A stretch of 64,000 bases of DNA from positions 5,744,001 through 5,808,000 of the forward strand of contig NZ_CP022685.1 of assembly GCF_002556545.1 (NCBI RefSeq), read 5' to 3'. This DNA comes from Streptomyces formicae. GTDB taxonomy: Bacteria > Actinomycetota > Actinomycetes > Streptomycetales > Streptomycetaceae. Under the pieces are notes generated by a model, which saw only the letters and a program-made list of their open reading frames with translations, searched no databases and had not been told where the DNA came from. The position numbers and the translations under genes are program-made. Positions 35,982-47,346 of this stretch are shown piece by piece (positions within the stretch are counted from its first letter, which is position 1; every line of letters starts with the position of its first letter).

Positions 35982-36005
35982 GGGCACGGGCACGGTGAAC
36001 CGTGC
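35982..36005 (+). promoter_or_regulatory. shared ECF leader, copy 2, overlapping an inverted repeat
   Basis: The 16-mer GGGCACGGGCACGGTG at 35982-35997 is identical to the element before paralogue A. Here it also overlaps the inverted repeat GCACGG-TGAA-CCGTGC at 35990-36005, which is not preserved in copy 1. Confidence 0.55.
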
Positions 36006-36028
36006 CGCGTCGGCCGGATGGGAAAGCG

Positions 36029-36655
36029 TTGGGCCAGGGTGGGAGATCCCGTCGCGCGCGGGCGCACGACGAGGAACTGGGCAGAGCGATCGCGGCGGCA
36101 CAGCAGGGCGACGAGGCCGCCTTCGCCATCGCCTACCGGCTCGTCCAGCCCGGGCTCGTCGGCTATCTGCGCGGCCTGGTCGGCACCGAGGGGGAGACCG
36201 CGGAGGACGTGGCGGCCGAGGCCTGGCTGGAGATCGCCAGGGACCTGGGGCGCTTCCGCGGGGACGGCGCCGGATTCCGCGGCTGGACCGCGACGATCGC
36301 CAGGCACCGGGCCTTCGACCACCTGCGCCGACAGCGGACCCGGCCGCGCCCCGCAGCCCCGGAACAGGACCTGCTCGAACTGCCGGGCCCGCACGACACC
36401 CCCGAACAGGCCCTCGAGGCGATCTCGACCCGACGGGTGCTCGACCTGATCGGCGAACTGCCCCGCGACCAGGCGGAGGCCGTCCTGCTGCGGGTGGTCG
36501 TCGGCCTCGACGGCCCCGCGACGGCCCGGGTCCTCGGCAAGCGGCCCGGAGCGGTACGGACGGCCGCCCACCGGGGACTGCGCAGGCTCGGGGAGCGCCT
36601 CGGCCCCGACGGCGCGGCGGATGAGGGGCCCGGCACGCTGGGCGAGTCGAGATGA
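36029..36655 (+). CDS. ECF RNA polymerase sigma factor (paralogue B)
   Basis: A 208-aa factor closely related to paralogue A. It has the same GQGG N-terminus, then AFAIAYRLVQPGLVGYLRGL, GETAEDVAAEAWLEIARDL, WTATIARHRAFDHLRRQR, LPRDQAEAVLLRVVVGLDGP and VLGKRPGAVRTAAHRGLRRL. The start TTG at 36029 is set by alignment with paralogue A; its Shine-Dalgarno (GGAAAG) is close. No anti-sigma gene follows; the next gene belongs to the terpene block. The pair looks like a local duplication. Confidence 0.88.
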   Translation: MGQGGRSRRARAHDEELGRAIAAAQQGDEAAFAIAYRLVQPGLVGYLRGLVGTEGETAEDVAAEAWLEIARDLGRFRGDGAGFRGWTATIARHRAFDHLRRQRTRPRPAAPEQDLLELPGPHDTPEQALEAISTRRVLDLIGELPRDQAEAVLLRVVVGLDGPATARVLGKRPGAVRTAAHRGLRRLGERLGPDGAADEGPGTLGESR

Positions 36656-37078
36656 AGGGCGCGCGCCGGGCGCGGGGGTGATGGCGGAGCGGGTGGCTCG
36701 GGCCGTCGGGCCAGGCGTACAGACGCGGCGAGGCCGAGCCTCATCGAGGCGCACACGGAGTCCTCTGCTGGGCGGTGTGGTCCAGGCGGCGGTGAAGCCG
36801 CCTTCAGGCGCCCGGGGCAGGGGGGGCGGTGGTGGTGCGGAAGGAGCGCTTCCGCACGGGATATGCCATGTCCATGTTCTGTTCCGCCCCCCCCTGCCTC
36901 GTTGGATGCTTTCGAGCCCCCTGTGAGCAGGCATGTTGTGCAGGGGCAGGGCAAATGAATAACGACGTGCAGCGTCACAGCGTCACTGATCTGCCGGCTT
37001 CCTTGTGCTGTGTACCTGGTTTCCGGGGTGCACGGTCGACGGTCGGCAGAGGGCGCGTCCGGTGGGAGGAGCAGAGGG
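36656..37078. other. junction between sigma paralogue B and the terpene block
   Basis: This stretch of about 420 bases holds no convincing gene. A 9-bp hairpin (GTGCGGAAG at 36835-36843 with CTTCCGCAC at 36849-36857) may terminate the sigma gene. From about 36900 the sequence becomes noticeably richer in A and T, consistent with the start of the accessory block and with the promoter for the terpene genes. Confidence 0.5.
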
Positions 37079-37606
37079 ATGGCCACGGTCGTGGCGGACA
37101 GCGTGGTGCCGGTGGTGCCGCTGCTGAAGCGGGTGGTCGGCCCGGGGGCGCTGCGTGCGCTGCCGGAGGACCAGTTGCCGGGGCTGGCCGGGGAGATCCG
37201 CCGGTTCCTCGTCGCGGAGGGCATCGGCGACACCAACCGCGTCTCCCTCTCGGCCGACCCCGTGGAACAGGTCAAGGCGGGCTGCCGCATCCCGCGGACC
37301 CCGGGACTGCGCCCTCGCAAGCTGGAGATCGCCGCCTGCCCCGGCCGCGGCGGTCGCCCGCGCCTCCAGGCCGACATCCACAAACCTGTTTCCCAGGTCG
37401 AGGCGGCCTTCGACGGCTTCCCCCACCCCCTGCGCGTCTCCTACGGCAACGGACAGGTCTTCTGCCACGGCGAAGTGCTGCGCACCGCCCCCGCATCAGC
37501 GTTCGTCGAGACGCAACTGGGCGGAGCGTCCCGCCTGCCCGACACGAGTAGCGGCAGCACACCAAGAAGGATGGTCAACTCCAGTGAAGCCGGTGAACAG
37601 ACATGA
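37079..37606 (+). pseudogene. chimeric remnant: Dxs N-terminus joined to IspG C-terminus
   Basis: The 175-residue frame joins pieces of two MEP-pathway enzymes. Residues about 13-45 (LLKRVVGPGALRALPEDQLP and on to GEIRRFLV) match the N-terminus of 1-deoxyxylulose-5-phosphate synthase. Residues about 46-140 (EGIGDTNRVSLSADPVEQVK, then LRPRKLEIAACP) match the end of HMBPP synthase IspG. IspG's CPSCGR is reduced to CPGRGGR, and the MGCVVNGPGE segment between PLRV and GNGQ is gone, so the cluster ligands are lost. It keeps a good ribosome site (GGAGG at 37065-37069) and overlaps the prenyltransferase start (ATGA), so it may still be translated. An inactive enzyme is the safest reading. Confidence 0.75.
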
Positions 37607-38739
37607 CCGTCAACGGATCACTGCCTCCCTCCCTCCAGCCCTTGCCCTCCATGCTCTCCTGCCCTGACCCGTTGGACCCGGCCCGGATACGTCATCAGGT
37701 CGACGCGGTTCTGGGCGCGTTCATCCACCACAAGAAGGCCGCGGCTCGCGAACAGGGGCTGCCTGTCGAGGCCCCCCAGGCACTGGATGACTTTCTGGCG
37801 GCCGGCGGTAAACGCCTGCGCCCGCTGCTGTGCGTGCTGGGCTGGCACACCACCGGCAGCAGCAGCGGGGGCGGCCTGGCGCAGGCGGTTCAGGTGGGCG
37901 CGGCTCTGGAGATGTTTCACGCCTTCTGCCTCATCCACGACGACATCATGGACCACTCCGACACCCGCCGCGGACGGCCTACCGTCCACCGCGCGCTGGC
38001 TGCACGTCACCGTGCGGGCCACGACGCTGTTCTGGCCAAGGACATCGGCACCAGCGCGGCCATCCTGGCCGGCGACCTCGCCCTGCTGTGGTCCGACGAA
38101 CTCCTCCGTGCCCCGGACACCGGCCTCGGCCCGGCCCAGCTCGAACAGGTGGCGCCGCTCATCGACCTGATGCGGGGGGAGGTGCTGCACGGCCAGTACC
38201 TGGACCTGATCTCCACCGGACGCCCCTCCCCTGACACCGGCCCGGCGCTGGCGATCATCCGGTACAAGACCGCCAAGTACACCTGCGAGCGGCCCTTGCA
38301 CATCGGTGCCGCCCTCGCCGGAGCCGATGCCCGCTTCCTGGACGCACTGAGCGCGTTCGCGCTGCCGCTGGGTGAAGCCTTCCAGCTCCGCGACGACCTG
38401 CTGGGGGTCTTCGGCCATCAAGCCGAGACCGGCAAGCCCACCTTCGATGACCTGCGCGAGGGCAAACACACCGTGCTCATCTCCTTCGCCCTGAAGGCCG
38501 CGGACGACACCCAGGCACGGCTGCTGCGCACTCTGTACGGCAATGCCCGCCTGGACGAGGACGACACCGACACCGTGCGGGCCGTCCTGCGGGCCACCGG
38601 CGCGGACCAGGCCGTCGAGCACATGATCACTAACCGCTACGAGCAGGCCCTGGCCGCCCTCGAGGGCCTCTCCCTGCCCCGCGAGGTGCACCACCAACTG
38701 CGCAGCCTCGCAGACAAGACGGTGTGGAGGACGTCATGA
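37603..38739 (+). CDS. polyprenyl diphosphate synthase (probably GGPP synthase)
   Basis: A 378-aa trans-isoprenyl diphosphate synthase. The first Asp-rich motif is DDIMDHSDTRRGRP near residue 110, and the second is DDLLGVFG near residue 265; GGKRLRP near residue 67 binds pyrophosphate. The residue five before the first motif is Phe and the motif has no two-residue insert, a pattern known from type I geranylgeranyl synthases, so a C20 product is favoured. It would supply the terpene synthase downstream. It is coupled at both ends by ATGA overlaps to the chimeric remnant and the first Rieske gene. Confidence 0.92.
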   Translation: MTVNGSLPPSLQPLPSMLSCPDPLDPARIRHQVDAVLGAFIHHKKAAAREQGLPVEAPQALDDFLAAGGKRLRPLLCVLGWHTTGSSSGGGLAQAVQVGAALEMFHAFCLIHDDIMDHSDTRRGRPTVHRALAARHRAGHDAVLAKDIGTSAAILAGDLALLWSDELLRAPDTGLGPAQLEQVAPLIDLMRGEVLHGQYLDLISTGRPSPDTGPALAIIRYKTAKYTCERPLHIGAALAGADARFLDALSAFALPLGEAFQLRDDLLGVFGHQAETGKPTFDDLREGKHTVLISFALKAADDTQARLLRTLYGNARLDEDDTDTVRAVLRATGADQAVEHMITNRYEQALAALEGLSLPREVHHQLRSLADKTVWRTS

Positions 38740-39725
38740 CCGCAGCCGTTCGCTCAGGAAACGGAGACCGGCACTCGGGCTACGACGCGACCTGGTTCGC
38801 AGCAGCCCACTCCAAGAACCTGAAGCACCAGCAGATCGTCAACACCGTCGTCTGCGAGAAGAAGGTGACCTTGTACCGGACCGCTGACGGAGTCGTGCAC
38901 GCGATCAACCCGGTCTGCCCGCACCTCGGGGCGAGCCTCGGGCACGGTCGGGTGGAGGGAGACAACATCCGTTGTCCCTTCCACGGCCTGGCGTTCAACC
39001 CCGAGGGGCGATGCGTCGAGGTTCCCTGGGGGGCTCCCCCCATCCGTCCGAGCGTCCAGCACTACCGGGTGCACGAGAACAACGGATTCATCTACGTCTG
39101 GGTGAGCGAGACCGAACCTGCCTGGACGCCCCTTCACTTGGACCGATCCCCGTTCACCTACGCCGTCACCTGGGAAGCGACGATCAGTGCCAGCCCCCGC
39201 GACATGGTCGAGAACGCTCCCGATTACCAGCACTTCGCCGCCCTGCACACCATGGAGGCGCCCCGGCGGACCGCCCCTACCGTCTTTGAGAAGCACGTGA
39301 TGTCGATCCGTCTCAACGCTGCGGGATTCTGGGTGAACTACCCCACGCTCGCCAGCTTGAACGCGGAGGGAACCGGCCTCATCCACGCCCACGTGACGAT
39401 GCCCCGTACCGCCTTCCGGCTCTTGGAGATCGTCACGCAGACCCCGGCAGACCAGGGGACATCGGTTCTGCGAGTGGCGACGTACGCCAATGCCACCACC
39501 TTCCTCAAGGGAGCAGCACGCAAAGGGGCCGACCGCCTCGTCAGCCACCTCGCCCACTGGGGGGCCACCCACCAGATGAAACGCGACATCTTCATCTGGG
39601 CGCACCGGGTCTACCCCGAGCACGCGCACTTGACCAAGGGGGAGGAGGACATCGCCGCGCTCCGACGATGGATGAGGCAGTTCGACGAGGCCGCCCCGCA
39701 GCCGGATCCTCCGCCCGCCGCCTGA
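38736..39725 (+). CDS. Rieske non-heme iron oxygenase 1
   Basis: A 329-aa oxygenase alpha subunit. The Rieske 2Fe-2S ligands are C61 and H63 in CPHLGASLGHG, and C80 and H83 in CPFHG. The mononuclear iron site is N160-D163-H166-H171 in ENAPDYQHFAALH, like KshA and other single-component terminal oxygenases. It probably hydroxylates or desaturates the terpene made by this set, using electrons from a ferredoxin and reductase, which are not in the window. The start overlaps the prenyltransferase stop. I know few terpene pathways that use this enzyme class instead of P450s. Confidence 0.92.
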   Translation: MTAAVRSGNGDRHSGYDATWFAAAHSKNLKHQQIVNTVVCEKKVTLYRTADGVVHAINPVCPHLGASLGHGRVEGDNIRCPFHGLAFNPEGRCVEVPWGAPPIRPSVQHYRVHENNGFIYVWVSETEPAWTPLHLDRSPFTYAVTWEATISASPRDMVENAPDYQHFAALHTMEAPRRTAPTVFEKHVMSIRLNAAGFWVNYPTLASLNAEGTGLIHAHVTMPRTAFRLLEIVTQTPADQGTSVLRVATYANATTFLKGAARKGADRLVSHLAHWGATHQMKRDIFIWAHRVYPEHAHLTKGEEDIAALRRWMRQFDEAAPQPDPPPAA

Positions 39726-39857
39726 ACGCCGCCACGGGACAACCGGCCCCGGTGCCTCGTCCGCACCTGTTCAGGGGCGACACGTGCTCGCCTGCCATCG
39801 GCTACCACCCGGAGTCGGCCGTAGAGCCGACTCCCCGACCTGATGAGGAAGAGCGGC

Positions 39858-40811
39858 ATGACGATGCAGCGCCACACATACCCCTGGGGCTGGTATCCGG
39901 TCGCGTTCAGTCGCGACGTTCCTTCGGGGAAGGTCATCACCAGCAAGCTCGCCGATTCAGAGGTCGTCGTCTATCGGACCGCTGACGGGCAGGCACATGT
40001 CATCTTGCCCACCTGTCCGCACCTGGGGGCACACCTCGGCGGTGGTCACGTAGAGGGCCAGCTCATCGTGTGCCCCTTCCACGCCTTCGGCTTCGCCCCC
40101 GACGGCACCTGCGCACGAACGGGCTACAACACCACCCCGCCCCACAACGCCCGCGTGGGTACGTTCCCCACCCAGGAAGCCAACGGCTTCGTCTTCGCCT
40201 GGTACCACGAGGCCGCCACGGCCCCGGCCTGGCGCATCGAGCAGGTGGACCTGAAGGGTTTCGGCTACGGGTACCGCAACCAGAACACCTTCCGCGGAAA
40301 CCAGATCGATCTCCTGGAGAACGGTGTGGACCTCGGGCACTTCCAGGTCGTGCACGCGAATCAGGCGAAGATCGTCAACGGTCATCCGATCGAAGACGAC
40401 TTTCGGTACGTCATAGACCTCGAACTCACCGGTTTCTACCGCAACATCCCCACCTACGTCCGCGCGGAGATGTACGGGCTCGGGTACGCAGTCGTGAGTC
40501 TGAAGATGCCGAAGTTCGCCGTGTCCGCGTACGAGATCATCGGATACACACCGGAGGGCAGCGGCCTCATCACACTGCGCCGGACCACGGTCACCCGCTG
40601 CGGCTCCGCGCCCGGAAATCCGGCCGGCCGCCATATCCTCCGGGTCGTATCCACACTGGTGGGATACGTGGTGATGCGGCTGAGCACCGTGCAGGGAAAC
40701 AACGACATCAGGATCTGGGACCGCCGCGTCTTCATCGAACGCCCGAAGCTGGCCCAGGGCGACGGGCCCATCATGCCTGCCCGGAAGTGGGCCGAGAAGT
40801 TCCACCACTAG
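39858..40811 (+). CDS. Rieske non-heme iron oxygenase 2
   Basis: A 317-aa paralogue of the preceding gene. The Rieske ligands are C53/H55 (CPHLGAHLGGG) and C72/H75 (CPFHAFGF). The catalytic iron site is N155-D158-H161-H166 in ENGVDLGHFQVVH. The start is ATG at 39858 with AGGAAGAG upstream; ATG at 39843 is in frame. It is separated from the first Rieske gene by 132 bases without a gene. Similarity to the first is clear in the Rieske domain but low elsewhere, so the two probably act at different positions or steps. Confidence 0.92.
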   Translation: MTMQRHTYPWGWYPVAFSRDVPSGKVITSKLADSEVVVYRTADGQAHVILPTCPHLGAHLGGGHVEGQLIVCPFHAFGFAPDGTCARTGYNTTPPHNARVGTFPTQEANGFVFAWYHEAATAPAWRIEQVDLKGFGYGYRNQNTFRGNQIDLLENGVDLGHFQVVHANQAKIVNGHPIEDDFRYVIDLELTGFYRNIPTYVRAEMYGLGYAVVSLKMPKFAVSAYEIIGYTPEGSGLITLRRTTVTRCGSAPGNPAGRHILRVVSTLVGYVVMRLSTVQGNNDIRIWDRRVFIERPKLAQGDGPIMPARKWAEKFHH

Positions 40812-40862
40812 GGCTCTCGGAACGCACCGCCAAACCCATCCACTGTTCAGGAGGACGCCCGC

Positions 40863-41870
40863 ATGCCAAGGACCGAATTCGACATCCCCGGGATCTCCGC
40901 GACCAGTCCCCACGTCCAGGCCGCACGAGAGCACCTCCTCAAGTGGATGAAAGGGTACGACCTGCTTCCCAGCGATTCCCGGACTCAGCAGCTAGGAAGT
41001 GAGGACGTCGCCCTCCTGACGGCCATGGGCTATCCCTGGGCGGGCTCGGAGGAGCTGAACATCCTGACGGATTACCTCGCGGTGACATGGGTGATCGACG
41101 ACGGGCTCGACACGAAGTTCGGCCGCGAGCCGCACCACGTGATCAAGCTTGTCGAGCAGCTCTGTGCCGTGCTCGACTTTCACGCCGTGGGGCCCGCGCC
41201 AGTGGTCGTCGATGCCTTCCACGATGTGTGGAAGCGCAGTGTCGAGGTCGCCTCCCCCCACTGGCAGGAACACGCCTCTCACACCTGGCGCGCCTACTTC
41301 TGGGGACAGGCATGGGAAACCATCAACAGGTACCGCGCCATGAACGCGCTGGATCTCGAGAACTACGTCTCCCTGTGGAACATTTGCAGCGGGGGCGCCG
41401 TGTGGTTCGAGTACGTCGAGCTGGGTCACGAAGAATTCCCCCCTGCCTGGTTCCACAGTCCAGAAGTCCAGAACCTGCGACGCGCGGCCAACGGCGTGGC
41501 ACTGGCGGTCGACGACCTGGCTTCGCTGGAGAAGGAGGAATCCGACGACGACGAGCACAACTTCATCAAAGTCATGATCAACGCGCACGGCTACAGCCGG
41601 GAAGACGCGATCGCGAAAGCAGTCGCCTGGGGACAGGAGCAGGCCGACCTGATGCGCCGCTGTTATGCGCGCCTCCAGGCGTACGCCGAACAACGCGTCG
41701 GCCTGGACGGAACCGACATCGAAAAGTGCCTGCGCGCCGCAGACGCGGTACTCGCGGGCACACGCGGGTACCACGACTGGGCGCTGATCTCCCCACGCTA
41801 CGGGTCCCACGGAATCCAGGTCCGCGGCGATGGAATTGACGAACCGCTCCGAGTGAGGGGACTGTTCTGA
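40863..41870 (+). CDS. class I terpene synthase
   Basis: A 335-aa cytosolic cyclase of normal bacterial length. The Asp-rich metal motif is D79-D80-G-L-D83. The second metal site is D217-D-L-A-S221-L-E-K-E225, fitting the (N/D)Dxx(S/T)xxxE form, and the C-terminal RY pair lies in ISPRYGSHG. It ionises a prenyl diphosphate and cyclises the cation. The start ATG at 40863 has AGGAGG nine bases upstream. It is the last gene of the set, so the substrate is probably the product of the polyprenyl synthase here. The skeleton cannot be predicted by eye. Confidence 0.92.
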   Translation: MPRTEFDIPGISATSPHVQAAREHLLKWMKGYDLLPSDSRTQQLGSEDVALLTAMGYPWAGSEELNILTDYLAVTWVIDDGLDTKFGREPHHVIKLVEQLCAVLDFHAVGPAPVVVDAFHDVWKRSVEVASPHWQEHASHTWRAYFWGQAWETINRYRAMNALDLENYVSLWNICSGGAVWFEYVELGHEEFPPAWFHSPEVQNLRRAANGVALAVDDLASLEKEESDDDEHNFIKVMINAHGYSREDAIAKAVAWGQEQADLMRRCYARLQAYAEQRVGLDGTDIEKCLRAADAVLAGTRGYHDWALISPRYGSHGIQVRGDGIDEPLRVRGLF

Positions 41871-42053
41871 AGGCGAGTTGGACTTCCCCGCGGAGCGACG
41901 CTTGTCTCCCCGTCCGCGATTGATCGGCCCAGCCGCACTCTGCGGGTCCTGACCAGGCGACTGGCAGCCCGGCGGCAGGGGACCGGAACAGCGGATGAGC
42001 TCGTTCGGGCACCATTTCAGTCCGTGACCTTGGGCTCGACGCCCTGGGGGGGG

Positions 42054-42240
42054 CAACCGCAACGTCGATCAGCCCCCCTGACAAGGGCAACACCTCCATC
42101 ATGTGGTCCTGGCTGCTGCCGCCTACACCGAGGATGATCCCGACGCGGTTGGCGCCGCAGGCCGAGTGCCCCAGGCCGACGTCACCGGCGGCTTTCCGTC
42201 CGGCGGCGAGGGCGAGGCGGATGAACCGGTCGGTGCGCAA
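42054..42240 (-). pseudogene. beta-ketoacyl-ACP synthase N-terminal fragment
   Basis: On the minus strand the frame from 42240 reads TDRFIRLALAAGRKAAGDVG, then RVGIILGVGGSS, the pattern of the segment before the active site in FabF-type ketosynthases (DRFxxLALxAAxxAxxDAGL, RVGxxxGxG). The rest of the domain is missing and no in-frame start or catalytic cysteine follows. It is a small decayed piece between the terpene synthase and the Tn3 remnant. Confidence 0.45.
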
Positions 42241-42489
42241 GGCCAGACGCGGCCCGGCCGTAGCGGCCAGGGCGGTTCATCCATGTGGCAGGGGAAGGGA
42301 GCCAGCGAGACCGAGTCCTGCTCATCCGTGCCCGTCGCCTGCCAGGGCGGTCGGTCGGCGCGAGCCTCCGGCCGCCCTGGCAGCGCCGAGTCCGGGGAAG
42401 TGCCCCGGCAGCTCTCCTGGATCGGCTCAGTCATGCGAGCGATAGCGTCGGCATGACACCGGTGCCGCACGGTCGAGCGCGGCCGCGAG

Positions 42490-42755
42490 TTCGCACGGTG
42501 CGCTACATCGGCCGGTTCCTCCCGGACGACCTGCTGGACGCGCCGTGGGCACGTCATCGAGCACTTAGCCGTGCGGCTCGGCATCGGGGATGTCTCGTGC
42601 CTGAAGCGGTACACCGAGCGCAAGCCGACGGCATACGGAGCACGCGTGGGAGATCCGGGAGTCCTGCGAGTAGCACGAGGATGTGGCGTGGTCGAGGCGG
42701 TCAGCACCGTCCTGCACGGGCGGGCGTGGACTCACCGACAGCGAACTGGCAGACC
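42490..42755 (+). mobile_element. decayed Tn3-family transposase fragment (DUF4158 region)
   Basis: Plus-strand sequence covers the N-terminal DUF4158 part of a Tn3 transposase, split over three frames: VRYIGRFLPDDLLDAPW, then VIEHLAVRLGIGDVSCLKRY and TERKPTAY, then EHAWEIRESCE followed by an in-frame stop, then LHGRAWTH. At least two frameshifts and one nonsense codon make it dead. No terminal inverted repeats or resolvase were found. It marks old transposition next to the terpene set. Confidence 0.75.
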
Positions 42756-42769
42756 ATCAAGGTAAGCGC

Positions 42770-42990
42770 TGGCTCGGCGGAACGTTGCACAGCTGGTGCT
42801 CCAGTTCCCAATCGGCCGGTCGGCCCTTGGGGTCGAACCATGCGGATCCGGCATTGAGTCAACGGCCGCGAACGCGGCGGGCCTGGGCCACAGTGTCCTC
42901 TCCGATGCTGGACTCGGTACCGCAGCACTCACAGACGACAAACAGCGCCAAGCCGTGATCGTCGAAGCACAAGAGTTCGTCAACTTGACT
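42770..42990 (-). pseudogene. unidentified decayed coding fragment
   Basis: Minus-strand translation gives DELLCFDDHGLALFVVCECC, then a stop after about 40 residues and WFDPKGRP in a shifted frame. The CxCC cluster looks like a zinc-binding or small regulatory protein. I cannot name the family. It may belong to the same transposon debris. Confidence 0.3.
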
Positions 42991-43276
42991 ACTGATTGAC
43001 AAAGCCACCGGGCCCTCGCGTCGGTCGTGAACCGCACAACATCCAGCGCTTATTCATCACGCTCCGCGAGGCGTGAGCCGAGTCAGCACCTTCCGGCCGT
43101 TGTCCGCCATTGGAGTTTTATCGCACCCCTGTTCGGGTCACTTCAGGTCAGTGAGCACTGGAGCGTCATGCCCCGGGGGAACGCAGTTGAGGTCTCCCGG
43201 TGAGGGCCGGTCCGCTGCGCGACGTCCCTCAACCGTGTGCCCGTCTCTGCACCGCCGAACCAAAAGGAGAAACTCG

Positions 43277-43897
43277 ATGAACCGGCATTCCTCCCGCTCC
43301 ATGCGGCTGGTGACGTCCGCGATCCTCACGGCCCCGCTCCTCGTCGTACTCCCGGGCGCAGACCTGGCGCAGGCGCAGGCCCCAGCGTGCGGCGGCACGC
43401 GCGACGCGTACGTGGGCAGCACCTACCGGGGCACCACCAAGACCACGGGATCACTGAACCCCTCCCTGCTGCCGCCGATCCTCAACCCGCACCGCCTCGA
43501 CACGCCCTCCACCCCGCTCAGAGCGGCTGCGGGCATCAACGCCGAGGCCGAACTGGTGGTCAAGTTCACCAAGGACGCGCGGGGCGAATACTGGGCGAAC
43601 ACCACGGCGGACGGGAAGGTCACGAGCAGGAGCGGCTACACGCTCAACCTCACCGGGGCCCCGAAGGTCGAGTTCAACGCCAAGATGCACGAGCCCGTGC
43701 TCCACGAGGTCTGGCAGACGGTGAAGGGCGAGCTCAAGCACATCGACAAACTGGACTCCGTCGGCAAGTACATCTACGGCTACGCGCTCGCCGCCCAGAA
43801 CTGCCCCTCCGGCAGCCAGACCCCCACGGTCCTGGCCTCAACGGAGGACAACGGCTTCGGACTGCGCACGACCACACGCCTCACCCGCCAGGGCTGA
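43277..43897 (+). CDS. secreted hypothetical protein
   Basis: A 206-aa protein with a signal peptide (residues 1-35, ending ADLAQAQAPA). The start is ATG at 43277 with AAGGAG seven bases upstream. The mature part contains beta-rich segments such as AEAELVVKFTKDARGEYWAN and YTLNLTGAPKVEFNAK, and two cysteines (ACGG, NCPSG). I do not recognise a family. It lies inside the accessory block, between transposon debris and a second small secreted protein. The 43000-43276 stretch upstream holds no gene that I can see. Confidence 0.75.
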   Translation: MNRHSSRSMRLVTSAILTAPLLVVLPGADLAQAQAPACGGTRDAYVGSTYRGTTKTTGSLNPSLLPPILNPHRLDTPSTPLRAAAGINAEAELVVKFTKDARGEYWANTTADGKVTSRSGYTLNLTGAPKVEFNAKMHEPVLHEVWQTVKGELKHIDKLDSVGKYIYGYALAAQNCPSGSQTPTVLASTEDNGFGLRTTTRLTRQG

Positions 43898-44069
43898 CAC
43901 GAGAGGGCCTCACAGTGATGTGCGCGCTCCTCGACCACGCCGTCGACGACAGCGCCGTGTGACACTGCCGAAAACCCCTCCCCGGCGAGGGCCGGGCCAG
44001 GTCAGAGCATGTGACCCCACACCGAAGAGCCGGGCCGCAACCATCGGGCCAGAGCCTCGTTCTCCGGGC

Positions 44070-44306
44070 ATGAAGAAGATCATCTCTGTCGCTGGCCTCG
44101 CTCTCGCCGTGGCCTGCCTTGCCGCCCCTGCCCACGCCGACGACGGCGACAACTTCGGTCCCGGCATCAACGCCGCGAACAACTGGAACTTCACCGCCGC
44201 CGCCGTCTGCTTCCAGGAACTCGCCGTCGTGCCCGTGGGCGGCGCCTGGAACGGCAACACGCTCAACCACTGCGTGAACGGCAACGTGCTCAACCACGCC
44301 AAGTAG
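44070..44306 (+). CDS. small secreted protein
   Basis: A 78-aa precursor. The signal peptide is KKIISVAGLALAVACLAAPA with cleavage near AHA-DDGD. The mature peptide of about 55 residues has two cysteines (VCFQEL, NHCVNG) that could form a disulfide, and an Asn-rich C-terminus (GNTLNHCVNGNVLNHAK). The length and signal recall the small secreted peptides common in Streptomyces, but it lacks the chaplin core. A hairpin terminator follows directly. Confidence 0.72.
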   Translation: MKKIISVAGLALAVACLAAPAHADDGDNFGPGINAANNWNFTAAAVCFQELAVVPVGGAWNGNTLNHCVNGNVLNHAK

Positions 44307-44320
44307 ATCCCCCGGGCTCA

Positions 44321-44347
44321 GGCGGCGAGGCGACCGGCCTCGCCGCC
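44321..44347. terminator. terminator after the small secreted protein gene
   Basis: GGCGGCGAGGC at 44321-44331 pairs perfectly with GCCTCGCCGCC at 44337-44347 around a GACCG loop. It lies 15 bases past the stop codon. Confidence 0.75.
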
Positions 44348-44481
44348 GGCATCAAACGCAGACCCTTGCAGCCTGCGGCGAGTGGATGACGGTGGGCGCG
44401 CTGCTGGATACACGTCCGGCCTGCACCCACCGTGACGCTCATCCACTTCCGCGGCCGCTAGCTGACCTCGGCTTCGGCAGG

Positions 44482-44748
44482 CTACGTGACGGGCGGGAAG
44501 TGGAGTGGGCGAGGCGGATGGGTCGTCCTGTGTTCACGCGCGAAGTGGATGGCCGCCGCTGCAGATCCACCAAGCCGTTCAAGGAAGAACGCGCGTGCCA
44601 TGGACCGTCTTTGCTCATCGTTCACGTGCATGATCCACCGGGCCGGTGCGGGGACGAAGTGGGCGGCTGCGACGGCTTCCGTCAGGCCGGGTGCCGGGCC
44701 CCGGCGCAGTTGTCCGGTCAGCGCGGTGTACCGACGCAGGGCGTCCAT
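44482..44748 (-). CDS. possible small hypothetical protein or remnant
   Basis: An 88-residue frame beginning MDALRRYTALTGQL, with helical character (LTEAVAAAHFVPAPARWIMH, EQRRSMARAFFLERLGG) and only moderate GC3 bias. The frame is open further upstream to 44958. No convincing ribosome site or family was found. It may be a decayed gene of the accessory block; 44348-45187 otherwise shows nothing clear. Confidence 0.3.
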   Translation of the reverse strand: MDALRRYTALTGQLRRGPAPGLTEAVAAAHFVPAPARWIMHVNDEQRRSMARAFFLERLGGSAAAAIHFAREHRTTHPPRPLHFPPVT

Positions 44749-45187
44749 CTCCGAGCGGCGCAGCCCAACCCTTCTCCGGCCTGGCTCGGCTGCCTGGGCG
44801 GGCGCTGGGGAGAGTGGCCCACGAGGAGCAGCACGCCGATTCGGACCCACCGGCCTACCCGGGGGAACTACCTGCCCGGGAGCGCACCAACGCGGCCGCT
44901 TCTCCCGCGAAGAGGTCGTGACGCGCCTGCTGTCCGCCCGAGACGGAGTTCTCCACATTGCCGGTGCTGCCGCTCATTTGGTCTTCCGCTCCGACAGGAT
45001 CGCTCAACGGCGGGTCCGGCGGGTCCGGCGGGAGCCTTCGGGAGGTCGGCGCCGCGTCTCCTTTCACGTCTCCTTCCGTGTTTCTCTCCATATCCTTTCC
45101 GTTCGCGTACGCGATCATGATGACCTAGGGTGTGCGGCGTACCGCGGGGTGCGCAGAAGCCCCGCAGCTAGCGAACGGGGTTGTGCA

Positions 45188-45553
45188 GTGCGGAAGTTGG
45201 CTTCTCTGCTGGGTGTCGTGGCGATGACGGGGGCCGCGTTTGCGGCCGGAACGGCGACGGCCGGTGCGGTCACGCCGGATGCCGCTCCCACGAGCGTGGC
45301 GAGCAAGTCGTGCGGCAAGGGGAAAACGATCAAGGCGAAGGAGAGCGTCAAGATCCGCAAGACGCGGAAGCTCAACTCGACGGCCAAGGGCCTGTACCCG
45401 AAGGGTGCCAAGGCCAAGTGGGCCGCGTGCGAGGTGAAGTACGGGCAGACCTACTCGAAGTGCGGCTGGCACAACGACAACCGGTGGTCGTACATCAACT
45501 ACCGGGGGACCAAGGGCTGGATTCCGACCGCCTGCGAGAACTTCATCGTCTGA
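45188..45553 (+). CDS. small secreted SH3-like protein
   Basis: A 121-aa protein. The signal peptide (RKLASLLGVVAMTGAAFAAG then TATAGA) is followed by a bacterial SH3-type domain: ESVKIRKTRKLNSTAKGLYP and then KCGWHNDNRWSYINYRGTKG, with the typical closing W-I-P-T-A-C-E-N. Two or three cysteine pairs may form disulfides. SH3b domains of this kind often bind cell wall. The start GTG at 45188 has only a weak G-rich ribosome site. It is single, with a strong terminator directly after. Confidence 0.82.
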   Translation: MRKLASLLGVVAMTGAAFAAGTATAGAVTPDAAPTSVASKSCGKGKTIKAKESVKIRKTRKLNSTAKGLYPKGAKAKWAACEVKYGQTYSKCGWHNDNRWSYINYRGTKGWIPTACENFIV

Positions 45554-45565
45554 GCTGACGCACGC

Positions 45566-45607
45566 ATGAGGGGCCCGGAACCGCCGTCACGGTTCCGGGC
45601 CCCTCAT
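45566..45607. terminator. strong terminator after the SH3-like gene
   Basis: A perfect 18-bp stem: 45566-45583 (ATGAGGGGCCCGGAACCG) pairs with 45590-45607 around CCGTCA. It lies 12 bases after the stop. The stem ends in ATATT on the plus side. Confidence 0.92.
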
Positions 45608-45779
45608 ATTCGCGTCGCCTTCCAGCCGAGCCCGTTCCAGGTCCGACAGATCGCCCCTCCCCACGCCTGGCAGAACGAGTGAACGCGAACACCGTCACCC
45701 GACCCGTCGGACAGGCTCTAGCTGACTCGCCCCGCAGCCCGGATGCGATGGGCCGAACTGCCGGGCGGTTAGAAGAAGA

Positions 45780-46152
45780 GGAGCCTCGGATACTGAGGCG
45801 GCCCCCCAAGCCAGTGTCTTGGTCCTGTACTGCGTGGCGGGTCGGCTGAAACTGCAGTAGTTGGTCGTGTCGTCCACGTATACGCGGAGTACCGGCAGTT
45901 GCATGCGTCTCTGTACCCACTGGGCCGGGTCGGTGCCGACCGCGGCCACCGGCAGCCACCGGCCCCCTCCGCGGGCAGGAACACGCCGGGGTTCAGGAAC
46001 AGCTCGCGGGGAACGGCCTCCACCGCCGCCCGCCAGCGGGGGCTGGAGAGGACGCCCGCCTCCGTCAGGCGGACGGCGAGGGCGCGCCGCGAAGTGCTCC
46101 AGACCTCGCGGCCGACGACCAGCACGCGCAGATCTGCTGCCTTGTCGACCAC
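45780..46152 (-). pseudogene. methyltransferase remnant (ATP-grasp maturase-associated type)
   Basis: Minus-strand frames read RLTEAGVLSSPRWRAAVEAV, PRELFLNPGVFLPAEG, and then, after a frameshift near 46000, GGRWLPVAAVGTDPAQWVQR. This is the N-terminal pattern of the protein-L-isoaspartate-type methyltransferases that accompany ATP-grasp peptide maturases in Streptomyces. The S-adenosylmethionine-binding part is missing and the ending is aberrant. It is a dead gene in the accessory block. Confidence 0.5.
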
Positions 46153-46156
46153 GGCC

Positions 46157-46330
46157 TGGATGTGGAAGGAAGAGCTCGGCTCGAACTGGGACGATCACGG
46201 CCTGGTCTTCGCACGTGACGGCTACAGGCTGTGTAAGGGCGGGACAGCCCCGGGCGGCCCGCAAGATGCCGGCCAGGTCAGCGCCCGATGGTGCTCCACC
46301 AGGGAGCGGCTCGGTCTTCCGGGAGGCCGG
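46157..46330 (+). mobile_element. tyrosine recombinase (phage integrase) remnant
   Basis: Plus-strand translation gives EELGSNWDDHGLVFARDGYR, then QVSARW and RERLGLPG, which fits the segment before the catalytic HxxR box of actinophage integrases (DHGLVFxRDG, then AGLPxxRLHDLRH). The HxxR-Y end is lost. With the Tn3 piece it suggests the accessory block arrived by transfer, but no attachment site or tRNA was found. Confidence 0.4.
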
Positions 46331-46680
46331 CACTGCCCAGCGCATCGGCCTAGAGGGCATGGGGTGAGTCTGAAGATGCGTTGGCCACGCTGTGGGCCAT
46401 GTAGATGCCCCGCACTCCGAGTCTTGGCAGACCGGAGCACGGGGCATCTCCGCGACGACCGGGGCCGCCACCCCCCACAGGAGAGGCCCCGGCCGGCACG
46501 CGGCACGAACCGCGTGCGGTCCGTACTTCCTTCAGCGCCGCGCGTGCGTTTTCTGTCACACCGCGCTCTGTCACTCGGTAGTTGCACGTTGTACAAACAT
46601 GGACGTGGGCCTGGCGAGGCCGTAGCGTGCTGCTTCGCGCCGGGGCCGGGCGCAGATCTCCGAGTGGCAGGATTGAGAGA

Positions 46681-47346
46681 GTGCTGGGGGACGACGCGGA
46701 GCTGACCGCCGCGGTGCTTGCGGCGCAGGACGGGGACGAGACCGCGTTCCGTTCTGTGTACCGCGCTGTGCACCCGCGGCTGTTGGGATACGTACGCACG
46801 CTGGTCGCCGAGCCGGACGCCGAGGACGTCGCCTCCGAGGCCTGGCTGCAGATAGCGCGCGATCTGGAGCGCTTCAGCGGGGACGCCGACCGGTTCAGGG
46901 GCTGGGCGGCGCGCATAGCGCGCAACCGCGCCCTCGATCACATACGCATGCGGGGCCGCCGCCCCGCGATAGGCGGCGACGAGTCCGAGCTGACTGGCAA
47001 ACCCGGCGAAGCGGACACCGCGGGGGAGGCGATGGAGTCCCTCGCCACCGACGCGGCGCTCGCCCTGATAGCGCAGCTCCCGCAGGACCAGGCGGAGGCC
47101 GTCGTGCTCCGCGTCGTCGTCGGTCTCGACGCGAAGAGCGCGGCCCAGACCCTCGGCAAGCGCCCGGGGGCCGTCCGTACGGCGGCGCACCGCGGGCTGA
47201 AGCGACTCGCGGAACTGCTCGGCGCGGACGGCGCGGGACCGACGGACGCGCTGGGCGCCGTACCCCCTCAGAGAGAACCGCGTGGGCACGCGGTGACGTC
47301 CGCCGGTGTGACGCATTCGCGTACGCGGACGCAGAAGGACATGTGA
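46681..47346 (+). CDS. ECF RNA polymerase sigma factor (paralogue C)
   Basis: A 221-aa factor. Region 2: TAFRSVYRAVHPRLLGYVRT, PDAEDVASEAWLQIARDL and FRGWAARIARNRALDHIRMR. Region 4: LPQDQAEAVVLRVVVGLDAK and LGKRPGAVRTAAHRGLKRL. The start is GTG at 46681. It belongs to the same group as paralogues A and B but is more distant and lacks their shared leader. Its stop overlaps the start of the anti-sigma-like membrane protein (TGATG), so the pair is co-translated. The 46330-46680 gap upstream holds no further gene. Confidence 0.9.
   Translation: MLGDDAELTAAVLAAQDGDETAFRSVYRAVHPRLLGYVRTLVAEPDAEDVASEAWLQIARDLERFSGDADRFRGWAARIARNRALDHIRMRGRRPAIGGDESELTGKPGEADTAGEAMESLATDAALALIAQLPQDQAEAVVLRVVVGLDAKSAAQTLGKRPGAVRTAAHRGLKRLAELLGADGAGPTDALGAVPPQREPRGHAVTSAGVTHSRTRTQKDM

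Follow-up and report, generated by a model that had tools for sequence, protein, structure and literature searches.

Tailoring of bacterial terpenes is mostly thought of as the work of cytochrome P450 enzymes (P450s). A locus of Streptomyces formicae raises the question of whether a pair of Rieske oxygenases can take the place of the P450. The locus lies in a 64-kb stretch (bases 5744001–5808000 of the 9.6-Mb single-contig genome, NZ_CP022685.1), which is referred to as the window and in which the positions of its genes are given. Four intact open reading frames (ORFs), all on the plus strand and with strong Pfam matches, encode (i) a polyprenyl (short-chain) diphosphate synthase (PPS; 37603–38739; polyprenyl_synt, 1.9e-53); (ii) a Rieske oxygenase of the KshA_C family (Rieske 1; 38736–39725; Rieske, 6.7e-21, and KshA_C, 1.4e-18); (iii) a second Rieske oxygenase of this family (Rieske 2; 39858–40811; Rieske, 7e-18, and KshA_C, 2.2e-14); and (iv) a class I terpene synthase (TPS; 40863–41870; Terpene_syn_C_2, 3.1e-31). 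The set probably makes an oxidised terpene using two Rieske oxygenases where similar sets carry a P450. We consider that it likely is a compact terpenoid operon gained by horizontal transfer, in which the predicted TPS would make a C15 or C20 skeleton to be hydroxylated by the two Rieske oxygenases.

Gene content and proposed pathway

The PPS gene overlaps a preceding ORF (described below) in an ATGA at 37603–37606, and a second ATGA (38736–38739) couples the start of Rieske 1 to the PPS gene. With ATG starts assumed, gaps of 132 bp and 51 bp separate Rieske 1 from Rieske 2 and Rieske 2 from the TPS gene. A preliminary description of the locus had reported these four genes on one plus strand, partly joined by ATGA overlaps, and both statements stand. 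Predicted structure models were confident (for Rieske 1, the AlphaFold2 mean predicted local distance difference test score was 90.4). Hidden Markov models (HMMs) built for this analysis found no match to a P450, a methyltransferase, IspH, or UbiA in the window.

We infer the following roles for these proteins. The PPS would supply farnesyl diphosphate (FPP) or geranylgeranyl diphosphate (GGPP), and the TPS would ionise and cyclise this prenyl diphosphate. The resulting skeleton would be the substrate of Rieske 1 and Rieske 2, which would hydroxylate it at two positions or else desaturate it, a reaction described for DAF-36; the electrons would come from a ferredoxin/reductase encoded at another place in the genome. 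With only four genes, the set could be moved in one step into a laboratory Streptomyces or E. coli host, which makes it well suited to finding out what Rieske enzymes of this kind do.

The two KshA-type Rieske oxygenases

Both Rieske proteins are of the KshA/DAF-36 type (PF00355 plus PF19298), with both domains above the curated cut-offs of 20.3 and 23.3 bits (74.4 and 68.1 bits in Rieske 1; 64.8 and 54.5 bits in Rieske 2). Residues C61, H63, C80, H83, D163, H166, H171, and D284 (Rieske 1 numbering) are invariant in a 28-row alignment that includes both proteins. We take the first 4 residues to bind the iron–sulfur cluster, D163 to be the bridging Asp, and H166, H171, and D284 to form the 2-His-1-carboxylate site. 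The iron-site pattern N-x-x-D-x-x-H-x4-H and the later Asp are kept in both proteins.

A protein-database search, which detects only relatives sharing short exact words, gave among the matches listed a 71% identical relative of Rieske 2 and a 69% identical relative of the TPS (for the Rieske proteins, the best 120 of 171 and the best 120 of 1186 matches were listed). A single-sequence scan of genome contigs with Rieske 2 gave no relative, and an alignment search of such contigs gave at least 80 loci. No orthologue-level match to Rieske 2 was present among 393 other genomes of the same class (next best, 336.7 versus 568.4 bits); this and the other orthologue searches scored only the best first-look candidates per genome, and some genomes are in both the genus and the class sample. 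In the Rieske tree (74 rows kept of 165, close copies dropped), both window proteins fall in a 10-row group (support 100/99) with P0127–P0132, a TPS-adjoining Frankia Rieske protein, and a Rieske protein of genome G058, and this group is separate from the sod-type group (described below). P0127 and the 69% identical TPS relative (P0006) come from contigs of 4.0 and 2.2 kb, respectively.

We surveyed how often such Rieske genes adjoin TPS genes in 150 loci, made up of 80 loci found by Rieske 2 similarity (the best of more) and of Streptomyces regions from Rieske 1 and related searches; 146 held a KshA-type Rieske match. Four loci chosen for their PPS (L118–L121) were left uncounted, and L185 and L186 had been chosen for triple partial matches. 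The two sources overlap, with 131 distinct Rieske proteins at 99% identity. A class I TPS gene was located at most 4 kb from the Rieske gene in 18 of the 146 loci, the weakest counted case being L067 (3.3 kb, short TPS match); L183 (5.1 kb) was not counted. Within 1 kb of the Rieske gene, the density of TPS genes was 45.3 per Mb; it fell to 14.3 per Mb at 1–2 kb and, in the four bins from there to 10 kb, to 1.8, 1.9, 0, and 0 per Mb. After clustering of the Rieske proteins at 65%, 15 of 54 groups were linked to a TPS. KshA-type Rieske genes recurrently neighbour class I TPS genes in Actinomycetota and Pseudomonadota, and this recurrence favours a role of the Rieske genes in the terpene pathway. 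No assignment of a chemistry to this pairing was found in the accessible parts of the open-licence literature examined.

The preliminary description would have been overturned if the Rieske genes served a different pathway, such as the degradation of steroids or aromatics, and stood between the PPS and TPS genes by chance. The closest solved fold of Rieske 1, that of the steroid 9-alpha-hydroxylase KshA, would suit such an origin. By contrast, the genome has only two KshA_C matches, both in this set, which speaks against a steroid-degradation set; in addition, the TPS–Rieske association recurs, and Rieske 1 overlaps the PPS gene. We therefore regard a chance placement as very improbable, and continue with the Rieske proteins as candidate enzymes of the terpenoid pathway.

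The class I terpene synthase

The TPS has the alpha-fold and the Pfam match of the bacterial class I TPSs (PF19086). The nearest solved or modelled cyclases, which share the fold, are the pentalenene, isoafricanol, and avermitilol synthases (25–30% identity in structure alignments), and the window TPS reaches 142 bits against a cut-off of 500 for the NCBIfam isoafricanol synthase equivalog. The metal motif DDxxD is present as DDGLD (residues 79–83), and the RY pair (in SPRY) is intact. The NSE triad, D217-D-L-A-S221-L-E-K-E225, agrees with (N/D)D-x-x-S-x-x-x-E, the broad consensus that allows Asp at the first position.

Two positions set the window TPS apart from the three synthases named above. 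First, the initial residue of the NSE triad is Asn in 29 of 33 aligned TPSs, and only the window TPS (Asp217), its 69% identical relative P0006, and the TPSs of the sod-like loci L086 and L089 depart from it. Second, position 172, the site of the pyrophosphate-sensor Arg upstream of the NSE triad, is Trp in the window TPS and in P0006; across the same 33 TPSs, the residue is Arg in 29, Trp also in Frankia L017, and His in L062. The preliminary description had all catalytic residues intact in all four proteins, which is true of the Rieske ligands and iron site but does not extend to the TPS. Judged from the sequence, membership of the fold stands, whereas activity is not assured without the sensor Arg. 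The relative carries the same two substitutions; the substitutions are therefore old and kept. Because it lacks the pyrophosphate sensor, the cyclase lends itself to testing to what extent this residue is required.

In the TPS tree, the window TPS and its 69% relative belong to an 11-row group (support 99/97) together with other Streptomyces TPSs and the TPS of locus L126 (described below); the L126 TPS and others were flagged as long branches, the placement of which is unsure. Alignment searches found no TPS orthologue among 391 other genomes of the genus (next best, 155.8 versus 742.5 bits) or among 393 other genomes of the class (next best, 143.5 bits).

Two TPSs of the survey deserve a remark. 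In Frankia sp. AiPs1 (L017:5126–8765), the genes are arranged P450-Rieske-TPS, the Rieske protein is in the group of the window proteins, and the TPS has Trp at the sensor position. In Pseudomonas sp. GM50 (L091:12016–12867), the TPS has DDMPL instead of DDxxD, as do the group B synthases described in the accessible part of PMC13022886, and its gene adjoins two Rieske genes and ispH-ispG.

A dxs–ispG relic and related operons

The ORF that overlaps the PPS gene (37079–37606, plus strand; Pfam GcpE, 4.4e-13) opens the range covered by the preliminary description but went undescribed there. It is a DXS/IspG fusion relic, presumed inactive: residues about 14–45 match the DXS N-terminus, and residues 34–157 match the C-terminal part of IspG, so that a single ORF scores with both the DXS HMM (1.7e-5) and the IspG HMM (4e-22). 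The IspG part is 50% identical to IspG of L126 and of the plasmid operon L208, and the DXS part is 62.5% identical over 32 amino acids to DXS of L208. The MGCVVNGPGE stretch of IspG and the central parts of both enzymes are absent. With a DXS start joined to an IspG end and the central parts gone, the ORF was ruled out as a working gene. In both L126 and L208, dxs and ispG precede the PPS gene with the same ATGA junction as that observed between the relic and the PPS gene. Most likely, therefore, the ancestor of the set was a dxs-ispG-PPS operon, the first two genes of which would have collapsed into one remnant. The host methylerythritol phosphate pathway would supply the precursor, and dxs and ispG of the operon could thus decay to a relic.

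L126 (G094:C1:6583000–6602000) is an uncharacterised locus of another Streptomyces species with the order dxs-ispG-PPS-Rieske-TPS-Rieske-ispH. Like the window, it has, all in one orientation, a PPS gene, a class I TPS gene, and a pair of KshA-type Rieske genes, with an ATGA overlap between ispG and the PPS gene. Unlike in the window, its dxs, ispG, and ispH are intact, a Rieske gene stands on each side of the TPS gene, and its TPS, 25% identical to that of the window, has the canonical sensor Arg and NSE Asn.

Three plasmid operons, L207 (S. olivoreticuli, NZ_CP129916.1), L208 (pSSP121038), and L209 (p65_CHABEC), likewise have the ispG-PPS order and a class I TPS. L207 has a second PPS gene, a TPS gene, a squalene-oxidase-repeat gene, and Tn3 and IS5 transposases nearby, and L208 and L209 have ispH, a TPS gene, and a P450 gene; transposase or recombinase genes lie near both L207 and L208. 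In contrast to the window, the annotated genes of the three stretches include no Rieske gene, and dxs and ispG are annotated as full-length. None of the plasmid records reaches 80% of the whole cluster DNA used as query, and the best matches cover the ispG-PPS part. The PPSs of the window, L126, L207 (PPS1), and L208 share the stretch FHAFCLIHDD, and a PPS of this type adjoins a class I TPS in the window as in the dxs-ispG-PPS-(ispH)-TPS operons, in which dxs and ispG, intact or annotated as full-length, occupy the place that the relic has here. The window set most likely goes back to an operon type that is mobile among Streptomyces (dxs-ispG-PPS-(ispH)-TPS-oxidase) and was seen elsewhere with a P450.

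A PPS-Rieske pair followed by a P450 gene and a UbiA gene was seen in genome G393 (L117:8963–11078); this set is terpenoid-like, and its Rieske protein is 51% identical to Rieske 2.

Precedents for Rieske genes in terpene clusters

That bacterial terpene clusters can contain Rieske genes is known from two systems, as far as the accessible parts of the sources tell. In the sod-like cluster of Serratia sp. FS14, Duell et al. (2019, PMC6366047) report a Rieske protein that resembles those of P. chlororaphis and B. pyrrocinia, whose clusters are likewise sod-like. As in the window, one or more KshA-type Rieske genes of sod-like clusters adjoin a class I TPS gene, and among the surveyed loci, L066, L086, and L091 also carry matches to dxs, ispG, and ispH. 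By contrast, sod-like clusters encode a SodC-type methyltransferase (seen in L086 and L089), and an HMM of this FPP methyltransferase, built from L081, L086, and L089, had no match in the window; the sod-like TPS and Rieske proteins also fall in other parts of the trees than those of the window. Two loci with the order TPS-methyltransferase-Rieske-P450-PPS, in Micromonospora wenchangensis (L071:8128–13341) and Actinoplanes subtropicus (L081:8119–13415), may be clusters for methylated terpenes that contain a Rieske gene in organisms other than Proteobacteria.

The second system is the gromomycin pathway of Streptomyces (gene clusters in PMC12105684 and PMC13010261), a terpenoid pathway with three Rieske oxygenases and its own polyprenyl synthase (PMC12105684). 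Besides the three Rieske oxygenases, this pathway has a P450; its product is a guanidino-triterpene, and its cyclase, GroF, is proposed to work by protonation. The window differs, with two Rieske matches, no P450 match, and a class I TPS (GroF and GroH were not searched for). L185 (genome G202) and L186 (genome G331) look like gromomycin-type loci of two further species: in each, KshA-type Rieske matches stand three in tandem next to a PPS that has a DDxxxxD insert.

The outcome named as support by the preliminary description was seen: no characterised cluster with a PPS, a class I TPS, and two Rieske oxygenases was found in the open-licence literature, a scope outside which subscription papers mostly lie. 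No mention of Rieske enzymes was found in the accessible parts of PMC12929941, PMC10881772, and PMC10301674, and the terms “oxygenase” and “2Fe-2S” had no match in the main text of the C17 terpene paper PMC13022886. The same description had called a two-Rieske terpene set without a P450 unusual. The lack of a P450 match in the window bears this out in part, but L126 shares the set, two Rieske genes and a TPS gene occur together in 7 of the 146 surveyed loci (L049, L053, L066, L084, L086, L091, and L126; in L084, the second Rieske gene is more than 5 kb from the TPS gene), and the sod-like and gromomycin clusters are precedents. The set seems to be a rare variant of a recurring Rieske–TPS kind and not unique.

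Order of oxygenation and cyclisation

In terpene pathways, oxygenases usually act after cyclisation. The reverse order, in which the Rieske enzymes would act on the uncyclised chain (as the prenyl diphosphate or as a linear intermediate) and the TPS, unusual as it is, would be adapted to the oxidised substrate, accords with the gene order PPS-Rieske-Rieske-TPS, the coupling of Rieske 1 to the PPS gene, and the fact that both the sensor Arg and the NSE Asn changes are kept in the 69% relative. Moreover, the only other departures from the NSE Asn among the 33 TPSs, in L086 and L089, belong to sod-like clusters that encode methyltransferases, and sod-type TPSs take a preformed C16 diphosphate (PMC13022886, in the part accessible). 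In gromomycin, inactivation of groA, groB, and groC led to accumulation of a linear precursor (PMC12105684, likewise in part). However, the two-Rieske locus L126, with the order PPS-Rieske-TPS-Rieske, has a TPS with the canonical sensor Arg and NSE Asn, and the usual order of terpene oxygenation also stands against this alternative, which we think unlikely. If it were true, oxygenation would set up cyclisation, and the pathway would be the oxygen counterpart of the methylation-first sod pathway.

Several observations weigh against the reading that we prefer, a terpenoid operon whose cyclised product is oxidised by the two Rieske enzymes: (i) the missing sensor Arg could mean a changed substrate or low activity of the TPS; (ii) full-length relatives of Rieske 1 are at most 37% identical, among the matches listed and the 391 same-genus genomes, and short partial matches reach 44%; (iii) the Rieske 1 branch is long (1.68), and its exact position in the tree is unsure; (iv) no ferredoxin/reductase gene was found in a Pfam scan of ten flanking ORFs, the genome not having been searched for one; and (v) the L126 Rieske proteins are 27–31% identical to those of the window and lie outside their group, so that the four-gene set shared with L126 may have arisen by independent recruitment of Rieske genes to the same operon backbone.

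Precursor chain length

The window PPS has Phe at position −5 and Cys at position −4 of the first Asp-rich motif (DDIMD), which has no insert. Phe at −5 without a motif insert fits type I GGPP synthases, and on this ground the preliminary description had favoured a C20 precursor. The residue is ambiguous: Phe was found at −5 in all eight close PPS relatives checked, whereas the residue is Trp in 8f8f and Cys in 3lk5, the closest solved FPP and GGPP synthases, respectively.

The neighbourhoods of related PPSs conflict as well. The window PPS is 57% identical to that of L126 and 54–55% identical to the plasmid PPSs (that of L209 being a partial coding sequence). A 53% identical relative on the S. 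clavuligerus plasmid pSCL4 lies together with matches to a class I and a class II type (SQHop_cyclase_C) cyclase and a P450, and by analogy this labdane-like neighbourhood points to C20. In S. olivoreticuli, a second, GGPP synthase-like PPS beside the one resembling the window PPS would, by the same kind of comparison, point to C15, and the nearest solved cyclases of the window TPS, mostly C15 enzymes, also point to C15. The C20 precursor read from the −5 residue alone was dropped as undecided.

Insertion site and flanking genes

The set lies in an accessory insertion of about 9.8 kb (36664–46451, edges approximate) between two conserved extracytoplasmic function (ECF) sigma factor genes on the plus strand. 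The left one (36002–36655; Pfam Sigma70_r2/r4_2) has 73–78% DNA identity in seven relatives, and the right one is located at 46582–47346 (Pfam Sigma70_r2/r4_2/ECF). The two genes are alike in sequence and near neighbours in relatives, and are split here by the insertion. We searched 25 relatives and compared in detail the seven that have both sigma genes close together. In six, the gap between the flank matches is short (341 bp in G011, 767 bp in G003, 954 bp in G006, 1156 bp in G001, 1180 bp in G007, and 1234 bp in G009), and G014 has about 7 kb of other DNA between the same flanks. The GC content falls from 0.71–0.75 in the left flank to 0.64–0.70 in the set, and the GC content at third codon positions (GC3) is 0.81–0.87 in the four genes versus 0.91–0.97 in many surrounding ORFs (mechanical gene picks). 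Downstream, the DNA is a mosaic of short stretches that match Streptomyces plasmids, one of the stretches being annotated as DUF4158 in some of these; this mobile-element debris (42493–42735) is 84% identical to DNA of NZ_CP108804.1, where it is unannotated, and is annotated as DUF4158 in 2 of the 12 places listed. Because six relatives have 0.3–1.2 kb at this place, GC and GC3 are lower, and the downstream patchwork is plasmid-like, the 9.8-kb stretch is accessory DNA in a conserved place. The location in a conserved region near mobile debris given by the preliminary description is thus confirmed.

The same surroundings might suggest a cluster in decay, that is, inserted DNA in which dxs-ispG has degraded and the function of the cyclase has been lost. 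The relic, the adjoining debris, the missing sensor Arg, and the long Rieske 1 branch are in line with this. By contrast, none of the four ORFs is interrupted and their GC3 is coding-like; relatives of 69% and 71% identity exist for the TPS and Rieske 2; DDGLD, the RY pair, and all Rieske ligands are intact; and the structure models are confident. Decay therefore seems to us improbable as an account of the set.

The different DNA of G014 at the same place suggests a possible hot spot for insertions. A further acquired fragment was observed at the right-hand edge of the 9.8-kb insertion, a stretch (45910–46160) that is about 87% identical to tgmB/tgmC DNA, of an ATP-grasp peptide system, on an S. 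chartreusis plasmid.

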